A stretch of DNA of 64,000 bases, from contig JAGYIY010000002.1 of the NCBI GenBank assembly GCA_018402485.1, forward strand, positions 248,001-312,000, given 5' to 3'. A program made the translations under genes and the position numbers. Each line of letters opens with the position of its first letter. Within the stretch, counting starts at the first letter, position 1. Of the stretch, positions 184 to 62,326 are shown one piece after another. Below the pieces are notes generated by a model. The model did not search any database, had not been told where the DNA came from, and saw nothing but the letters and a program-made list of their open reading frames with translations. Origin of the DNA: Roseivirga sp. (GTDB taxonomy: Bacteria > Bacteroidota > Bacteroidia > Cytophagales > Cyclobacteriaceae).

Positions 184-309
184 ATCTTTGCCCAAATCAA
201 ATTCATATAGCATCTTGGCTATTTGGGACGGGGAAAATTTACTCTTTCTCATATTACAGTTTTTAAAATTAGAAATTCTATTTTTAATCTGTAGCAGTTT
301 TGGGGGGGC

Positions 310-441
310 TTACAACGTTTAGTATATGAAAAGTAGGCGATTTCGAAGCACAAAAATTTCGGTTAAGTACAAAGTTTGAAACGAGCCAAAACGCATGAAT
401 TCACTACTGTTTCGCCTATTTTTTATATACATTGTTGGGCG
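310..441 (-). repeat. attC-like imperfect hairpin abutting the stop codon of the AIPR gene
   Basis: Left arm 312-340 (acaacgtttagtatatgaaaagtaggcga) pairs imperfectly with right arm 412-441 (tcgcctattttttatatacattgttgggcg); minus-strand ACGCCCAAC fits the RYYYAAC core consensus and lies about 5 nt past the TAA of the AIPR ORF. The distal core (GTTGTAAGC) is degenerate. Confidence 0.4.
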
Positions 442-445
442 TTCG

Positions 446-2257
446 TTATTCTTCTTTTAGTTTCTTTATCACAGCTTCAAAAATTCCTTTATACGTTCCG
501 TCTTTCTTTAGCCACTTATTTGTGTCGTTCGGTAGCCATTCTTCTCCTACATATTCCTTTTTCGCTTGTTTTTTCACATCAAGATAGTATTGAAGTGCTT
601 TAATCGTCTTAATAGCAAAGTCGTCAAATTCAGTTTCAAGAGTTAGTGTGAAACGTTCGCTTTGATTTACATATCCATTTGGTTTGAAAGTGGACAACTC
701 ACTTATTAAACTCTCTGGTGAATCTATTTTGTGTAGTTTGTCTTGAAAGAAGTATAAAGCTGAAAGTGAAAGTAAAACGTCATTTATGTAGTTGTTCCAT
801 AAAATTTCATAATTGTTATATTTCTCTCCTTTAATGTCGTTTATTCTTTCCGCAATTCGATAAGCTAAAATGAGTTTGTAAAATTGGTCATCTTCATTTT
901 TAGAAGAGTCAAAAATTCTGTCATAGTATAATTCAGAGAATACCAACTTATGGCGACCCACTGTAGATATTGGTAATTGCAAGTAAAAAGATAAATACGA
1001 AACACCTAAATCTAAATTTCTAATTTTTAAATGCATTGGACTTTTGCCAAATGGATTTCTATATTTTTTCTTATTCACCGTTGCCCATTCTCCATCTTTT
1101 TTGTCGTAGAAAACCCCAACATTATTTAGGTGTTCAAAAATCTTATTTTGAATTCTGTCGCCTGAATGTAAATCTCTTGCACTTATAGCATTTTGACTAT
1201 TACTGGCAACTGCAATGTCCATTGATATTTTTGAAGTTCTTGCTTTGTCTTTTACTTTAGTTAATCGAAGTAAAATTTGAATATTATCTGGTAAGTCGTT
1301 TACAATTCTTATAAGTGACTTGGCTGTTTGTCCACCGTTTACAATTTGAAAATTTTTGATTGTCAAGGTATTATTTTCATTAATTGTAAAGTCTTGACAC
1401 ACTCCATTAATTCCGTTGTTTAAAATCCAAAAATTTGATTTTTCTCCTTTAGAATACTCTTTTTTAATTTTTGAGTTAATATCGTTTTCGCCCTTGTAAT
1501 ATCTAACGTTTAATGCAAGAATTAGCTCTTTCTTATCTTCAATTATTGGCTTTAGGGAATTGGCATAAATTGAGGTGACAACTGTTTCTAATTCTGATTC
1601 GTCATTGTCATAGTAAGTAAGGTTTTTTGAAAATATTTCGTTCTCAACAAATCTTAATTCAACTTCATTTTTGGGTATTTCAATATCATCATAAAGTTCT
1701 TCCAATTCTTGGTAATTGTAATAACGAATGTCAAAATTTATGTTCTTGTCTTTGTAATTAGTATGAAGAGCATTTATATCTGTTTTTATATTGCCAATAA
1801 AGTCAGGGTCTATGAAGTAAAATGTGATAGAGAAATTGTTTGCTTTTAAGTTTTCGGGTGTTAGTATTGGCAATAACTCTTCGTCAATCACTTTTTTCAG
1901 TTTGTGATTAGGTGATAAGTTTTCGTCAGTCAAACCAATTATCCAATCAATAAAACGTTTGTTTTTCTTGATTTCATTAGTGTTTAGTAATTGGTTTTTA
2001 GAGTACTTGAATTGGAAAACCAAAATTTCATTATTGGCTTGATTTGTGAAAATCGCATCATTTCCCAAATCATTAGCCATATCTACAATATGGTCTTTTA
2101 TAAATTGGTCGAAATCATTTCCGTCATATTCGAAGTCAATGATTTTGTTAAAACACTCTTTAATTATAAAATGACCGAATGCGGTTCCGTCATTTTGATA
2201 TTTTTCGTTTGTAGTTAGTTCAGCTACTTGTTCTTTTATTCTATCGTAAAATTCCAT
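446..2257 (-). CDS. AIPR-family (abortive phage infection) protein
   Basis: 603-aa ORF; AIPR-type core ILALNVRYYKGENDINSKIKKEY...FWILNNGINGVCQDF...IKNFQIVNGGQTAKSLI is characteristic of the family. Confidence 0.85.
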   Translation of the reverse strand: MEFYDRIKEQVAELTTNEKYQNDGTAFGHFIIKECFNKIIDFEYDGNDFDQFIKDHIVDMANDLGNDAIFTNQANNEILVFQFKYSKNQLLNTNEIKKNKRFIDWIIGLTDENLSPNHKLKKVIDEELLPILTPENLKANNFSITFYFIDPDFIGNIKTDINALHTNYKDKNINFDIRYYNYQELEELYDDIEIPKNEVELRFVENEIFSKNLTYYDNDESELETVVTSIYANSLKPIIEDKKELILALNVRYYKGENDINSKIKKEYSKGEKSNFWILNNGINGVCQDFTINENNTLTIKNFQIVNGGQTAKSLIRIVNDLPDNIQILLRLTKVKDKARTSKISMDIAVASNSQNAISARDLHSGDRIQNKIFEHLNNVGVFYDKKDGEWATVNKKKYRNPFGKSPMHLKIRNLDLGVSYLSFYLQLPISTVGRHKLVFSELYYDRIFDSSKNEDDQFYKLILAYRIAERINDIKGEKYNNYEILWNNYINDVLLSLSALYFFQDKLHKIDSPESLISELSTFKPNGYVNQSERFTLTLETEFDDFAIKTIKALQYYLDVKKQAKKEYVGEEWLPNDTNKWLKKDGTYKGIFEAVIKKLKEE

Positions 2258-2291
2258 TCACTTGTTTTTTTCTAATGACGCCCAACATTTG

Positions 2292-2313
2292 TATAACGCG
2301 CATGCGCGTTATA
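2292..2313. repeat. 22-bp perfect palindrome TATAACGCGCATGCGCGTTATA
   Basis: Read directly; lies just outside the ACGCCCAAC sequence (2278-2286) upstream of the AIPR gene. Confidence 0.9.
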
Positions 2314-2533
2314 TCACATGTACCTACCAAAGCCTAACCCCTTAATAGTCAGTATAATAGACCGGATACCAAAATACTGTACCATTTAGCTCTTGTAATA
2401 AATATGCGACCATCTTTTAAAGTTAGTACAAAAGAAATAAAAATCATAAGGGGATGATTCGCGGTTTGCAAATGCTCACTTTATGGAGCTGTGGTGATGG
2501 ACGAATTACGATTTGGGGATTTTTGAATTTGGT

Positions 2534-2659
2534 TTCTACATTCTGACTTCTGAAATCTAACTTCCAGCTTCCAGCTTCTAACTTCCAACCTCCAACTTCT
2601 AACCTCCAACTTCTAACCTCTGACTTCTAACCTCTGACTTCCAGCCTCCAACCACTACC
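2534..2659. repeat. Degenerate 7-bp tandem repeat, consensus YTCYRRC, about 18 units
   Basis: Units in one register without indels: ttctaca ttctgac ttctgaa atctaac ttccagc ttccagc ttctaac ttccaac ctccaac ttctaac ctccaac ttctaac ctctgac ttctaac ctctgac ttccagc ctccaac cactacc. Confidence 0.9.
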
Positions 2660-2668
2660 CCCCCACTT

Positions 2669-3448
2669 CTAGCCTCTTAAAAACACAAAATGATTCTCCG
2701 TAGACGCTTCTTCATCAAAGCGGTAACCTTCGCCTGTAAAGGTTTTAACGCCTTCCACTGAATTGATTTGCTCTTGTACGATGTAGCGCGCCATGGCACC
2801 ACGCGCCTTCTTGGCGAAGAAAGAAATGACCTTGTACTTGCCATTCTTTTCGTCTTTAAAATCTACATTCACCACGCGAGCTGTCAGGGCTTTTTGTTTT
2901 AAGACCTTAAAGTATTCGTTTGAAGCCAAGTTCAATAATACATCATCGCCTTGGGTTTTTAATTCTTTCATTAATTGCTTAGCCAGCTGGTCTCCCCAAA
3001 AGGCATAAAGTGAGTTGTGATTGCCTACCTGCAGCTTTGTCCCCATTTCTAACCGGTAGGGTTGCATCGAGTCCAAAGGTTTTAAAACACCATACAAACC
3101 CGATAAAATGCGGACATGGTCTTGTGCAAAAGCCACAGCTTTGACACTCAGCGATGCCGCCTCCATGCCCTGATAAACATCTCCTTGAAAAGCAAAAAGC
3201 GCTGCCTTGGCATGATTTGGATCGTTATTGACATCAAAATTCAAATAGCGCTCTTGGTTCAGTTCGGCCAATTTATCGCTAATGCTCATGAGGTCTTTGA
3301 GGTCGCGGGCTTCGAGTGTCTGAAGCTGCTTGACCAAGGTAGTAGCTTGTTTACGGAAAACAGGCTGTGTTTGCGGCAAACTTTGGGCAGCAGGCGGAAG
3401 TGGATTTTCAAAATCAAGCGTTTTGGCAGGAGAAAGAACAAGTAACAT
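2669..3448 (-). CDS. yaaA: Peroxide stress protein YaaA (UPF0246/DUF328 family)
   Basis: MLLVLSPAKTLDFENPLP N-terminus and ILSGLYGVLKPLDSMQPYRLEMGTKL motif; start moved from 3478 to the internal Met preceding LLVLSPAK. Confidence 0.9.
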   Translation of the reverse strand: MLLVLSPAKTLDFENPLPPAAQSLPQTQPVFRKQATTLVKQLQTLEARDLKDLMSISDKLAELNQERYLNFDVNNDPNHAKAALFAFQGDVYQGMEAASLSVKAVAFAQDHVRILSGLYGVLKPLDSMQPYRLEMGTKLQVGNHNSLYAFWGDQLAKQLMKELKTQGDDVLLNLASNEYFKVLKQKALTARVVNVDFKDEKNGKYKVISFFAKKARGAMARYIVQEQINSVEGVKTFTGEGYRFDEEASTENHFVFLRG

Positions 3449-3564
3449 AAGCAATAGAATTTGAATACAATGATACAAAGCTTAAAGTAAAATTCCATTC
3501 CCTTTGTTGCGTGAAATCCATGTAATTCCATCAGAAAAATGATTGTAAGGCTTAGCTTTACATC

Positions 3565-4929
3565 TTGATGCAACGCAAGAAAATTGACCTTACTCGTGGT
3601 TCGCTTATCAAAGGGCTGATTGCACTCTCCCTACCCATTATTGGCGCCAATTTATTGCAAACAGGCTATCAATTGGTCGATGCCTTTTGGGTAGGTCGTT
3701 TGGGAGCCCATGCTGTGGCTGCCGTGTCTATCAGTTATCCGGTGAATTTTCTATTGATCTCACTCAGCTCAGGCTTTGCTTTTGCCGGAACCATACTTGT
3801 GGCCCAATATGCGGGAGCCAAAAAAATGCAGATGGTCAACCATGTGGCTACCCAAACCTTGGCCATGGTCGTGATCATGTCCATTGTTTTGTCTGCCATT
3901 GCTTACTGGCTTTCCCCTTATATTTTAACCGGATTGGGCGTTGAAGAAGTGATTTTCGATGATGCTAATTTTTTTCAACGCATCATATTTCTGGGGCTGG
4001 TCTTCAATTTTGGCTTTATCATGTTCCAATCCTTGTTGCGTGGCATTGGTGAAGTCAAAATCCCTTTATACATCAATGCTGCTACCCTAGCGCTCAATTT
4101 TGTACTCGACCCCCTATTCATTTACGGCTGGGGACCTGTGCCTGCTTTTGGGGTAGCTGGTGCCGCAGTTTCTACCTTGTTTACGCTTTTTCTTTCTGCT
4201 GCCATTGGGCACTATGTTTTGTTCAAAGGCATCACAGACATTCAGCTTACGCTTAGGAAATTCTCTTTCGACATTCCTCTTTTAAAGAAAGCCTTTAAAA
4301 TAGGTGCACCCTCTTCCATTGAAATTTCAGCACGTGCTTTGGGTTTAACTTTAATGACGGGCATAGCAGCCTACTTCGGCACTGAAGTACTGGCCGCTTA
4401 TGGTGTAGGCTCACGATTGATCAGCTTTGTTGTCATTTTCGGTTTGGGTTTATTGCGTGCCTCTTCTACTGTGGTTGGGCAAAATATGGGGGCTCAGCAG
4501 ATAGAAAGGGCAGAAAAAGGGGCCATTTATGCGGCATGGATGGGTTTTGTGAGTCTGGGCATACTGGGCATCATCATGTACTTTTTTGCAGACCCCTTGG
4601 TGCGCACTTTCCTCACCGGAGACGAGCATGTGATTCAGATGGGCGTCAATTTTATGAAAATATGTTCCCTAAGCTTTGGTTTTATGGGTGCGCAACTGGC
4701 CTTGGTAGGCACGCTGCGTGGTTCGGGGAACACCCTGGAATCTATGTTTCTTACCATCATAGGCATTTGGGTGATCCAATTCCCATTCGCGTGGTTTAGC
4801 ACACGCATGGGTTGGATGGATCAATCCGGGCTTTGGTGGTCATTCCCAATCAGTTATGTACTTTCCTGTTTGCTTACTGTGTATTGGTTCAAACGTGGCA
4901 CATGGAAAGAGAAAAGATTGATCTCCTGA
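3565..4929 (+). CDS. MATE family efflux transporter
   Basis: 454-aa polytopic protein, MATE-like N-terminus (LPIIGANLLQTGYQLVDAFWVGRLGAHAVAAV). Confidence 0.9.
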   Translation: MMQRKKIDLTRGSLIKGLIALSLPIIGANLLQTGYQLVDAFWVGRLGAHAVAAVSISYPVNFLLISLSSGFAFAGTILVAQYAGAKKMQMVNHVATQTLAMVVIMSIVLSAIAYWLSPYILTGLGVEEVIFDDANFFQRIIFLGLVFNFGFIMFQSLLRGIGEVKIPLYINAATLALNFVLDPLFIYGWGPVPAFGVAGAAVSTLFTLFLSAAIGHYVLFKGITDIQLTLRKFSFDIPLLKKAFKIGAPSSIEISARALGLTLMTGIAAYFGTEVLAAYGVGSRLISFVVIFGLGLLRASSTVVGQNMGAQQIERAEKGAIYAAWMGFVSLGILGIIMYFFADPLVRTFLTGDEHVIQMGVNFMKICSLSFGFMGAQLALVGTLRGSGNTLESMFLTIIGIWVIQFPFAWFSTRMGWMDQSGLWWSFPISYVLSCLLTVYWFKRGTWKEKRLIS

Positions 4930-4933
4930 AGTA

Positions 4934-7234
4934 TCAATTCTTTAAATTCAAACGAATCGTCTCCCCACCGTTTACCTCATATGCCTCATCATAAACAAAT
5001 AAGGACAAATGGGTCTCCGACTCATTGCTCATTTCAACAGATGTACTGTTGGCAGCTATGGTCAAATGGCAATCTCTAAATTTGATATGGAAGGAATAAC
5101 CTTTCCACTGGGCTGGTAGCATTGGGTAAAAGTGTAGCTCGCCTTTTTTCACCCGCATGCCTGCAAAGCCTTTGGCAAAAGCCATCCATGTACCTGCCAT
5201 AGACGTGGTATGGCAACCATCTTCTGTATCGTTGTTGTAGTCGTCCAAATCCAATCGAGCTGTGCGCAAGTACATCTCGTAGGCTTTTTCTTTCCGGCCT
5301 AATTTAGCCGCCAATATGGCGTGCACACAAGGAGAAAGTGAGGACTCATGCACGGTCATGGGCTCATAAAAATCAAAGTTTCGCTCAATGGTCTCCCTAT
5401 CAAACTCATCCTCGAAGAGATAAACCCCTTGCAGTGTATCGGCTTGTTTGATAAAACAAGAACGCAGAATACGGTCCCAAGACCAGTTTTGATTGATTGG
5501 CCTTTGACCCTTAGGAATGTCGTCTACCGTCATGATGTCTTTGTCTAAGAAGCCATCTTGCTGCAGGAATACTTTTCTTTCTTCGTCATACCCAAGGTAC
5601 ATATGGTCTAAGATATGCTGCCAATGCTTTGTTTCTTCTGGGGAAAATTTGAGTTGGCTTAACAAAGCATCTAGTGCGGCATTGCCTTTGTATGCTTGCA
5701 GACCATCGAGGGTGTACTGCAAGGTCCACAGTGCCATTTTACTGGTGTACCAATTGTTATTGACATTGTTTTCATATTCATTCGGACCTGTAACCCCATG
5801 CATTACATACTGTCCTTTTTGTTTAGACCAGTGTACACGCTGTGCCCAGAAACGGGAGATGGCAATCAAGACTTCTAAGCCATACTCCAGCAAATAATCC
5901 GGATCGTTGTGGTAATTGATATAATCGTAAATGGCATAGGCAATGGCACCATTTCTATGAATTTCTTCGAAGGTAATTTCCCATTCATTGTGGCATTCCT
6001 CCCCATTCATGGTCACCATAGGATACAAAGCAGCACCATCGGTGAACCCTAGTTTTTGTGCATTCTCAATGGCTTTTTGCAAATGTTTGTAGCGGTACAG
6101 CAAGAGGTTTTTAGCCACTTGCTGATCGGAGGTCGCCAAATAGAAGGCCAAGCAGTAGGCTTCTGTATCCCAATAGGTGCTACCCCCGTATTTTTCGCCT
6201 GTAAACCCTTTGGGGCCAATGTTCAGGCGCGCATCTTCTCCGGTATAGGTTTGATTGAGTTGAAAAATATTGAAGCGTATGCCCTGCTGTGCAGAAACGT
6301 CCCCATCAATTGTAATGTCACTTTTCTCCCATTTCTGCGCCCATAAGTTCACATGCTCCTGCAATAATTCTTCGTAACCAGATTGTTGAGCTTTTAGCAC
6401 TTCTTTTTGACAAACAGAGGTCAATTCACCTTTATCCACATGCATGGAAGAGATGTTAGAAGCGTATTTGAAAACGGTAAATGGCACACCTTCCTGTATG
6501 CTCCCTTCTTCTGTTACTTCCACATACTTTTCTTTTTCTTGTGCACTTATACTTTCTTGCACCCAACCGCCAGTAATGTCGTAAGCCATTCCTGTCACCA
6601 CATGAAAGTTTGTCTTTTTTGTGTTGGCGACTACGTAAGAAAAATGACTGTCAGCCTTTTTATCTACTTCTTCCCAAAACTTCTCATCATAGTTGGCATC
6701 TGCATTGATTACATCAAAATCAATGAAAGGCTTAAGGGTAACGGTTCCCGAGAAGTTGAGTGGTGTTACCTGGTAGGAAATGGCACCTACTTTGGTACGG
6801 GCCATGCTGCAAAACCTTTGCGCCACAACCTTCACCTCTTTCCCTGAAGGTAAAGCCACATGAAAAGAACGCTTCAGCCAACCTTCTTTCATGTTCAATT
6901 CCCTACGGAAAGCATGAATTTTAGCTTTGGCTAGATCTAAGGGTTCACCATCAAAAAACAGATGAATACCAATCCAATTAGAAGCATTTAAAACTTTTGC
7001 GAAGTATTCGGGGTAACCATTTTTCCACCAGCCTACACGGGTCTTGTCGGGGTAATAGACACCTGCCACGTAATTCCCTTGCAGGCTATGGCCGGTAAAT
7101 TGTTCTTCGAAGTTGGCACGTTGCCCAAACATTCCATTGCCCAAACTGAAAATGCTTTCAGAAATTTTGTTGAGTTCCGGATCAAAACCCTCTTCTATGA
7201 TGGACCAAGGATCTTGTTTGATGTAATTCTTCAT
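4934..7234 (-). CDS. Glycoside hydrolase family 65 (disaccharide/glucoside phosphorylase)
   Basis: 766 aa; N-terminal ESIFSLGNGMFGQRANFEE, catalytic-region motif EECHNEWEITFEEIHRNGAIAYAIYDYINY, GVTGPNEYENNVNNNWYT; followed by beta-PGM gene context. Confidence 0.9.
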   Translation of the reverse strand: MKNYIKQDPWSIIEEGFDPELNKISESIFSLGNGMFGQRANFEEQFTGHSLQGNYVAGVYYPDKTRVGWWKNGYPEYFAKVLNASNWIGIHLFFDGEPLDLAKAKIHAFRRELNMKEGWLKRSFHVALPSGKEVKVVAQRFCSMARTKVGAISYQVTPLNFSGTVTLKPFIDFDVINADANYDEKFWEEVDKKADSHFSYVVANTKKTNFHVVTGMAYDITGGWVQESISAQEKEKYVEVTEEGSIQEGVPFTVFKYASNISSMHVDKGELTSVCQKEVLKAQQSGYEELLQEHVNLWAQKWEKSDITIDGDVSAQQGIRFNIFQLNQTYTGEDARLNIGPKGFTGEKYGGSTYWDTEAYCLAFYLATSDQQVAKNLLLYRYKHLQKAIENAQKLGFTDGAALYPMVTMNGEECHNEWEITFEEIHRNGAIAYAIYDYINYHNDPDYLLEYGLEVLIAISRFWAQRVHWSKQKGQYVMHGVTGPNEYENNVNNNWYTSKMALWTLQYTLDGLQAYKGNAALDALLSQLKFSPEETKHWQHILDHMYLGYDEERKVFLQQDGFLDKDIMTVDDIPKGQRPINQNWSWDRILRSCFIKQADTLQGVYLFEDEFDRETIERNFDFYEPMTVHESSLSPCVHAILAAKLGRKEKAYEMYLRTARLDLDDYNNDTEDGCHTTSMAGTWMAFAKGFAGMRVKKGELHFYPMLPAQWKGYSFHIKFRDCHLTIAANSTSVEMSNESETHLSLFVYDEAYEVNGGETIRLNLKN

Positions 7235-61250: not shown

Positions 61251-62326
61251 ATATTGCCCCATTGACTTTTATGGTTATACAAAAGTTGCCCTTTTTTGAT
61301 GGTTAATGGGGCATTGAGGTTGTTGGTATACAACTTTCCCGTCCCTAAGCCTTGGGGCATCAATTCTGCATAATTTGCTGTCATTTGTGCAATAGCATTT
61401 AAAGCAATATTTGATTCCAGCATAGAAGTAAACCACCAGCCTATATCTCGTTCTTCTGCCAATTCTATCCATTCCTGACAAGCCAAAATACCACCGAGTA
61501 ATGAGGGTTTTAAAATGATAAACTGAGGTTGAATTTGATCTAATAATTGTGCCTTTTCACCAAGGCCATGAACCCCAATCAATTCTTCATCCAGGGCTAT
61601 GGGTAATATAGCTTCTTTACAAAGTTGACGCATCAAAGTCCGTTGCCCTGCCGCGACGGGCTGTTCAATGGAGTGAATATTCAGTGCAGCTAATTGTATC
61701 AGTTTCTCTCTGACATCTCCTTCACCAAAAGCACCATTGGCATCTACTCTTAAAGTAATTTCATTTGGTCCATATTGTTCTCTAATGTATTCCAATAGGC
61801 GAATTTCATCATCAAAACCAATGGCACCTATTTTCATCTTAATGGTATCAAAGCCTTCCTTTAGTTTTAGCGTAATTTGTTCTTGCATAAAGTTTGGCTC
61901 TCCCATCCAAATCAATCCATTGATGGGAATACACATTTTCCCATTAAAAAAGTCATTCTGAAAAATCTCTCTTCTTCCGCCATGAAATAGGTCAAGCAAA
62001 GCTGTTTCTACCGCAAATCGAATCGAAGGTAAGGAAGAAGGCACCAAGCTGTGGACCAATGAAAGAATAGATTGTGGATCAGAAAGCGAAAAGTTATCTG
62101 CTGTGACTCGTAAGAGCTCCTTCCGCAAAACATGCTCAAAATCGTTTGAATAGTCAATAGATAGCCCTTTGAGTGGACTTGCCTCACCCCAGCCAACAAC
62201 TTGAGGATTCCGGTTATCAAAAACCTTAATCCACCACGTTTCTTTCTCATTAAAGCTACCTCTTGATGTACCAGCAGTAAATGTAAATCGAAGGATATGG
62301 GGAACGATTTCAAATTGAAGAGCCAT
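61247..62326 (-). CDS. menC: o-Succinylbenzoate synthase (enolase superfamily)
   Basis: GWGEASPLKGLSIDY, TIKMKIGAIGFDDEI, LRVDANGAF, SIEQPV, FIILKPSLLGG. Confidence 0.82.
   Translation of the reverse strand: MALQFEIVPHILRFTFTAGTSRGSFNEKETWWIKVFDNRNPQVVGWGEASPLKGLSIDYSNDFEHVLRKELLRVTADNFSLSDPQSILSLVHSLVPSSLPSIRFAVETALLDLFHGGRREIFQNDFFNGKMCIPINGLIWMGEPNFMQEQITLKLKEGFDTIKMKIGAIGFDDEIRLLEYIREQYGPNEITLRVDANGAFGEGDVREKLIQLAALNIHSIEQPVAAGQRTLMRQLCKEAILPIALDEELIGVHGLGEKAQLLDQIQPQFIILKPSLLGGILACQEWIELAEERDIGWWFTSMLESNIALNAIAQMTANYAELMPQGLGTGKLYTNNLNAPLTIKKGQLLYNHKSQWGNI

Follow-up and report, generated by a model that had tools for sequence, protein, structure and literature searches.

At one end of the window (the whole 64,000-nt stretch of Roseivirga sp. 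DNA analyzed here), a single minus-strand ORF of the AIPR family lies between two short inverted cores and is followed by an imperfect hairpin extending from about 441 to 308 (Table 1). The first-pass annotation had located the ORF, both cores and the hairpin correctly. In a profile search, the ORF scores 115.4 bits against PF10592, above the curated cut-off of 25, and 126 bits against the PADLOC AbiU profile. AIPR proteins carry the annotation of abortive-infection phage resistance, and the cargo of this unit, which holds no partner gene, is predicted to be an AbiU-like anti-phage protein, protection against phage being only inferred from these matches. Toward the N terminus, D67 and Q82-F-K84 are conserved in eight AIPR relatives and could correspond to a PD-(D/E)xK-like nuclease motif. 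This remains an inference, the predicted structure (mean pLDDT 67, built from 8 sequences) being too weak to check it; a PDB fold search with this structure gave no match at E <= 0.001, so no mechanism is claimed from the fold.

The ends of the unit are of the GTTRRRY / RYYYAAC type, with GTTGGGCGT located 20 nt ahead of the ATG and ACGCCCAAC 4 nt past the stop, being complementary at 9/9 positions. By our own estimate for any 9-mer, the chance of a 9-nt inverted pair in these two short intervals is about 0.003. The cassette so delimited has a leader of 29 nt and a tail of about 130 nt downstream of the stop codon. The distal core, GTTGTAAGC, had been noted from the outset as departing from the consensus. 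The mismatch is real, but it does not represent a failed core, because an integrated cassette owns only the G/TT and the bases that follow belong to the next cassette or to the target.

Table 1. Coordinates of the cassette, its recombination-site features and the adjoining attI-like sequence in the window (a slash marks the cassette boundary)
Feature	Position	Strand	Remarks
AIPR-family ORF, 603 aa, sole gene of the cassette	446..2257	minus	ATG at 2257, stop at 446; PF10592 and PADLOC AbiU profile matches
Whole cassette, 1970 bp	316..2285	minus	From TT of G/TTGGGCGT to G of the distal G/TT; boundaries conserved in L052 and L053
5' core of the cassette, GTTGGGCGT	2278..2286	minus	Complementary to 433-441; plus-strand reading is ACGCCCAAC
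R'' core of the attC, ACGCCCAAC, RYYYAAC type	433..441	minus	
attC-like site	309..443	minus	Covariance model R1, 153.5 bits
attC stem, 5' arm	412..430	minus	
attC stem, 3' arm	322..340	minus	Two conserved C opposite A (bottom strand G.T)
Distal core, GTTGTAAGC	308..316	minus	Other attC copies share only G/TT; the remainder is target sequence
attI-like site	2287..2312	minus	Palindrome ATAACGCGCATGCGCGTTAT (2293-2312), ACAAAT ahead of the G/TT junction; close to the L124 attI

A comparison with other genomes shows that these ends accompany the gene, in line with the first-pass proposal that flanks and ORF would vary together. AIPR orthologues with 87% and 80% protein identity, found in two MAGs, one of Flavobacteriaceae (L052) and one of Bacteroidales (L053), start with GTTGGGCGTCATTA and end with CGAACGCCCAAC, identical to the window cassette, and each is located between other attC sites and has other neighbors than in the window. 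The ORF DNA is 75-80% identical and the cassette arms are the same, while the attC bodies are just 47-67% identical and the approximately 110 nt upstream 18-39%. The attC body would be either fast-evolving or swapped beneath a constant gene and arms, and the data do not decide between the two. In L052, the orthologue is the second cassette after an array-head recombinase. More distant AIPR relatives in L054 and L057 are also in cassettes, with different ends (GTTATAGGCG / CGCCTATAAC), the one in L054 being the first cassette after the C-terminal part of such a recombinase, and the relatives in L055, L056, L058, L059 and L060 have no such flanks in the R1 search. Judging from this comparison, which underlies the boundaries, the mobility and the structure, the AIPR gene is almost certainly a genuine mobile cassette of the integron type.

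The attC-like hairpin and its spread

When the 146-nt tail is used as query, matches of up to 93% identity are observed in 88/198 genomes of the family, representing 53 of its 86 genera. These matches begin and end at query positions 10 and 132, which correspond to YAAC and GTT, defining an attC-like repeat of approximately 123 nt, and the sequence beyond these edges varies between copies. Similar sites elsewhere, for which the first-pass annotation had proposed a search, exist both in the same genome, with a second copy of the repeat on contig C17, and across the phylum.

An alignment of 33 copies reveals a 17-pair stem plus AAC/GTT pairs, with compensatory changes at 10 base pairs (RNAalifold). 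Double-changed cells on the named structure amount to 31 versus 6.2 in shuffles, none of 500 reaching the observed value, and the signal is lost when the stem partner is shifted along the sequence; the copies are related, so these figures should not be taken as probabilities. Moreover, the top strand has A.C at two stem positions, in 28/33 and 32/33 copies, and the bottom strand hence T.G, and folding gives a more stable bottom strand in 30 of the 33 copies, by a mean of 1.8 kcal/mol (p 2e-6). Integron attC sites recombine as a folded bottom strand (PMC8352920). The window hairpin folded alone is not more stable than background (z of -0.03 and -0.43 against shuffles), and the thermodynamics of one copy would therefore have missed the site. 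Rfam gives nothing in the window at the gathering score and nothing in L022-L024 at E <= 1, and a search of phage records with the attC yielded no match. Based on its conservation, the hairpin is a recombination site, the recombination activity itself being inferred.

The covariance model (R1) scores the window hairpin far above background, as the first-pass annotation would require of a true site; the model was trained with the window copy included, whereas most of the copies it detects were not used for training. Sites are detected in 160/198 genomes and 78/86 genera of the family and in 101/199 genomes sampled from the phylum Bacteroidota, with E-values that are rough owing to a short calibration, and none in three non-Bacteroidota genomes used as a small control. 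The largest array, on plasmid pPP2 of Persicobacter psychrovividus (contig C3 of G050), whose host belongs to the GTDB family of the window, contains about 120 sites in a single orientation over about 98 kb. The cassette genes of this array (L125-L126; NZ_AP025294.1 306000-404592 plus the record start) are mostly hypothetical.

Other plasmids carry the same type of site. In p63039 of Myroides odoratimimus (L122, NZ_CP013691.1, 4990-7111), the same attC family flanks blaOXA, blaMYO-1 and aadS, the ends of the blaMYO-1 cassette matching at 8/9 positions, and in a Riemerella anatipestifer plasmid (L123, NZ_CP072192.1, 5994-7255) an erm(F) cassette with 9/9 ends lies between two R1 sites. A Chondrinema plasmid (L124, NZ_CP111070.1, 1407-5127) has a recombinase, an attI, a GNAT cassette, a group II intron, which may be inside or close to an attC, and an attC.

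The ends of 51 cassettes lying between consecutive sites were also compared. The bases after GTT and those before the next AAC are complementary at a mean of 5.10 of 7 positions, versus 2.21 +/- 0.19 after reassigning ends at random between cassettes (0/5000 shuffles reach the observed value), and the two sides of one and the same attC are unrelated (2.22 of 7). Complementary ends specific to each cassette are the signature of circularizing cassettes, excision being inferred from this pattern.

Tyrosine recombinases at the array head

In pPP2, a tyrosine recombinase is located at the 5' end of the array, across the record start, and it is missing from the distributed gene table because the gene spans this point. 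Related recombinases occupy the array head in many loci. In a set of 17 of them, termed A3, six catalytic residues are invariant (R242, K267, H331, R334, H357 and Y366). The six A3 members that were scanned match PF00589 and PF13495 and score 199-232 bits against TIGR02249, with a cut-off of 265, and 212-224 bits against NF040815, with a cut-off of 220. According to the alignment, the array-head enzymes lack an insert of at least 20 residues that both true IntI of the family possess, and they are often approximately 95 aa longer at the N terminus. In the tree, a split with 100/100 support separates XerC/D-like proteins from the array-head recombinases together with IntI, the branching point of IntI among these recombinases being unresolved.

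For the association of this enzyme with the sites across the phylum sample, an A3 score of at least 264 bits was used, the next matches being at 232 bits or below. R1 sites are present in 57 of the 71 genomes with an A3-type recombinase versus 44/128 without it (odds ratio 7.8, p 5e-10). Among the matches listed, all 26 recombinases within 20 kb of an R1 site are on the attI side (26/26, p 3e-8), 20 of them co-directional with the cassettes and 6 opposite. Three of these genomes also contributed to A3, and excluding them leaves 23/23 on the attI side; the p-values are optimistic since the genomes are related. Thus, the insert-less array-head recombinase probably drives cassette exchange, which would be a strong inference from position and co-occurrence, with catalysis untested.

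The insertion locus and its explanation

The window cassette stands alone: model R1 recognizes a single site across the window and the surrounding 12 kb, and no further one in locus L022. With no recombinase in the window or L022 either, the SALIN/CALIN criterion of an attC without a nearby integrase is met. The first-pass caveat that no integrase is in the window holds for the region searched, but the relevant enzyme is probably not IntI; it would be a relative without the IntI-specific domain. Neither could be found elsewhere in the genome, where the first-pass annotation had suggested looking: this 84.6% complete assembly yields neither an A3-type recombinase at E <= 1e-40 nor an IntI above the TIGR02249 cut-off, so that the criterion for a complete integron (IntI with its specific domain) is not met.

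The bases ahead of the cassette resemble an attI. At array heads, the recombinase stop is followed in most loci after 40-125 nt by the first cassette, and the attI junction in between has a rough consensus of hairpin-TATACAAn-GTT. The window junction reads ATAACGCGCATGCGCGTTATACAAAT/GTTGGGCG, and that of the Chondrinema plasmid array, directly past the recombinase stop codon, reads ATAACGCGTATGTGCGCGTTACACAAAT/GTTAGCTG. With a weight matrix derived from 26 other junctions, leaving out the window and L124, the window junction ranks 2nd of the 2003 GTT sites in the window, with no recombinase beside it. The better-scoring GTT, at 61285 (tatggttatacaaaa^gtt), is taken as a coincidence, since neither a hairpin nor a cassette accompanies it and the two genes on either side are ordinary and convergent. 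Within the family, the attI-like motif is found only in this genome (two copies) and in G029 (one), the latter with no recombinase and no matching R'' within 1.5 kb. The second palindrome of the own genome, at C10:442635, has no cassette, and given this lone copy the motif may be present outside integrons. From the likeness of the junctions, we regard insertion of the cassette at an attI-like sequence as quite likely.

In each of two relatives from the same genus, a sortilin-like gene lies next to yaaA in convergent orientation, separated from it by 377 nt in G210 and by 922 nt, apparently with an extra gene, in G058. In the window genome they are 6.9 kb apart, and the interval holds a lipoprotein, a PIN protein, AbiEii, a DUF6088 protein and the AIPR cassette. 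At the level of gene order, this comparison is an empty site for the whole island and not a base-level one for the cassette. The empty site joined at G/TTRRRY that had been proposed for relatives was not found at nucleotide level, the same-genus genomes being too divergent, and no attI-like sequence was seen in their yaaA/sortilin-like gap. Dispersed repeats (CAACTAAGGATTC..., ...CTGCCGTTACC) at L022 4820-6230 and 8060-8200 and L023 3190-3400 adjoin AbiEii, PIN and the cassette ends, and match neither R1 nor Rfam. Between the attI-like site and yaaA, window 2520-2670 is a low-complexity tract of CTTCTAACCTCCAA-type repeats, with more copies elsewhere in the genome.

Taken together, we favor, with a probability of about 0.8, a lone (SALIN-like) defense cassette, inserted at an attI-like G/TT and belonging to a Bacteroidota integron-like platform with an insert-less recombinase. 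That the cassette is a lone or attC-only one in a Bacteroidota genome, as first annotated, is supported by the recurring repeat, the cassette ends and the L052/L053 orthologues. Comparison of sequences shows the identity of the cassette, its boundaries, its changes of context, the structure of the site and the position of the recombinase at array heads. On the platform, cassettes ending in attC hairpins of approximately 120 nt, whose bottom strand folds better, would circularize via their complementary arms and insert beside a tyrosine recombinase at the array head, a relative of IntI without its specific domain, which is inferred, and only inferred, to catalyze the exchange. The single-gene AIPR cassette, with its own attC-like site, would have entered by site-specific recombination at the G/TT of the attI-like sequence downstream of yaaA, and the precise empty site would read ...TTATACAAATG/TTGTAAGC... 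As a lone cassette in a genome where no such recombinase is found, it was probably inserted in trans by an enzyme located elsewhere, the alternatives being that the recombinase has been lost or is missing from the assembly. Against this explanation, the insertion cannot be attributed to any resident enzyme of the 84.6% complete genome.

A sub-version of the same explanation is that the locus is the relic of a local integron, where recombinase and array once resided and all but one cassette decayed. The attI-like site directly upstream of the cassette would fit, with AbiEii and PIN nearby as possible remnants of its cargo; yet no recombinase remnant is detected in window 2287-5200 (best E 0.014) and L022 has no second R1 site, which leaves a local relic doubtful. 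Less plausible still, a canonical IntI could have inserted the cassette at a non-classical attG, the array-head recombinase being a bystander. Cassette insertion at attG sites is published (Loot et al. 2024, cited in PMC11023631), and true IntI does occur in the family; in G082, one contig contains both a truncated IntI and an attC of the type described here. Nevertheless, IntI over the cut-off is restricted to 2/198 genomes (G026 and G082), compared with 160/198 for the sites, no R1 site is present in the 19 kb around the full-length IntI of G026, and it is the insert-less enzyme that takes the attI side throughout and whose attI the window junction resembles. The truncated IntI (L063, G082:C64, 4333-8159) has an adjoining transposase-like fragment and possibly represents a decayed canonical integron. 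Finally, a transposon-like or homologous-recombination block that moved AIPR and hairpin with incidental core matches is hardly credible, since the adjoining AbiEii, PIN and dispersed repeats provide an island setting but would not account for ends complementary cassette by cassette, compensatory pairs or the co-oriented sites of pPP2.

Significance and relation to known systems

There is a reasonable case, well short of certainty, for a phylum-wide integron-like platform in Bacteroidota, with arrays reaching about 120 cassettes and a recombinase lineage without the IntI-specific domain, that carries defense and resistance genes, is missed by IntI-based tools and could explain cassette uptake in Riemerella. 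The IntI-specific insert is described as the domain that defines integron integrases and that they require (PMC9668308 citing Messier and Roy; PMC8138268), and it is incompletely conserved in an integron-like subgroup (PMC8138268). Integron surveys identify integrases via this domain (PMC9668308), and a system without it would therefore escape them. The system has apparently been overlooked, an earlier description not being excluded because the literature checked was open-licence PMC only. Since the sites flank blaOXA, blaMYO-1 and aadS in Myroides and erm(F) in Riemerella plasmids, the platform bears on the spread of resistance. It also raises the question of what would allow a recombinase lacking the IntI domain to act on a folded single-stranded attC.

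In Riemerella anatipestifer, aph(3')-IVb enters the chromosome by natural transformation without need of homology, as an insert with a 27-bp 5' UTR and a 140-bp attC-like 3' UTR; no integron or recombinase was found and the mechanism was termed not yet elucidated (PMC13148043). The leader and tail of the window cassette are alike in length, with no sequence comparison made, and the platform supplies specific candidates for both the site and the recombinase behind this homology-independent uptake. As for the cargo, the AIPR protein matches the AIPR/AbiU family (PF10592) above cut-off, and it differs in the absence of a partner gene from the cassette.

Compared with integron cassettes, including CALIN and SALIN elements, the same single ORF, RYYYAAC...G/TT cores, cassette-specific complementary arms, structured attC with a favored bottom strand and arrays in one orientation are observed. 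Class 1 and Vibrio attC sites have bulged bases; in place of these, the stem described here carries two conserved A.C positions (G.T on the bottom strand). The host phylum also differs, being reported as almost devoid of complete integrons: in the 2022 survey with IntegronFinder 2.0, Bacteroidetes yielded only In0 elements and one complete integron (PMC9024848). With respect to IntI (TIGR02249), the array-head recombinase scores under the cut-off, lacks the IntI-specific insert and is mostly co-directional with the cassettes, whereas it shares with IntI the position of a tyrosine recombinase at the attI end, the six catalytic residues and a grouping in the tree apart from XerC/D-like proteins.
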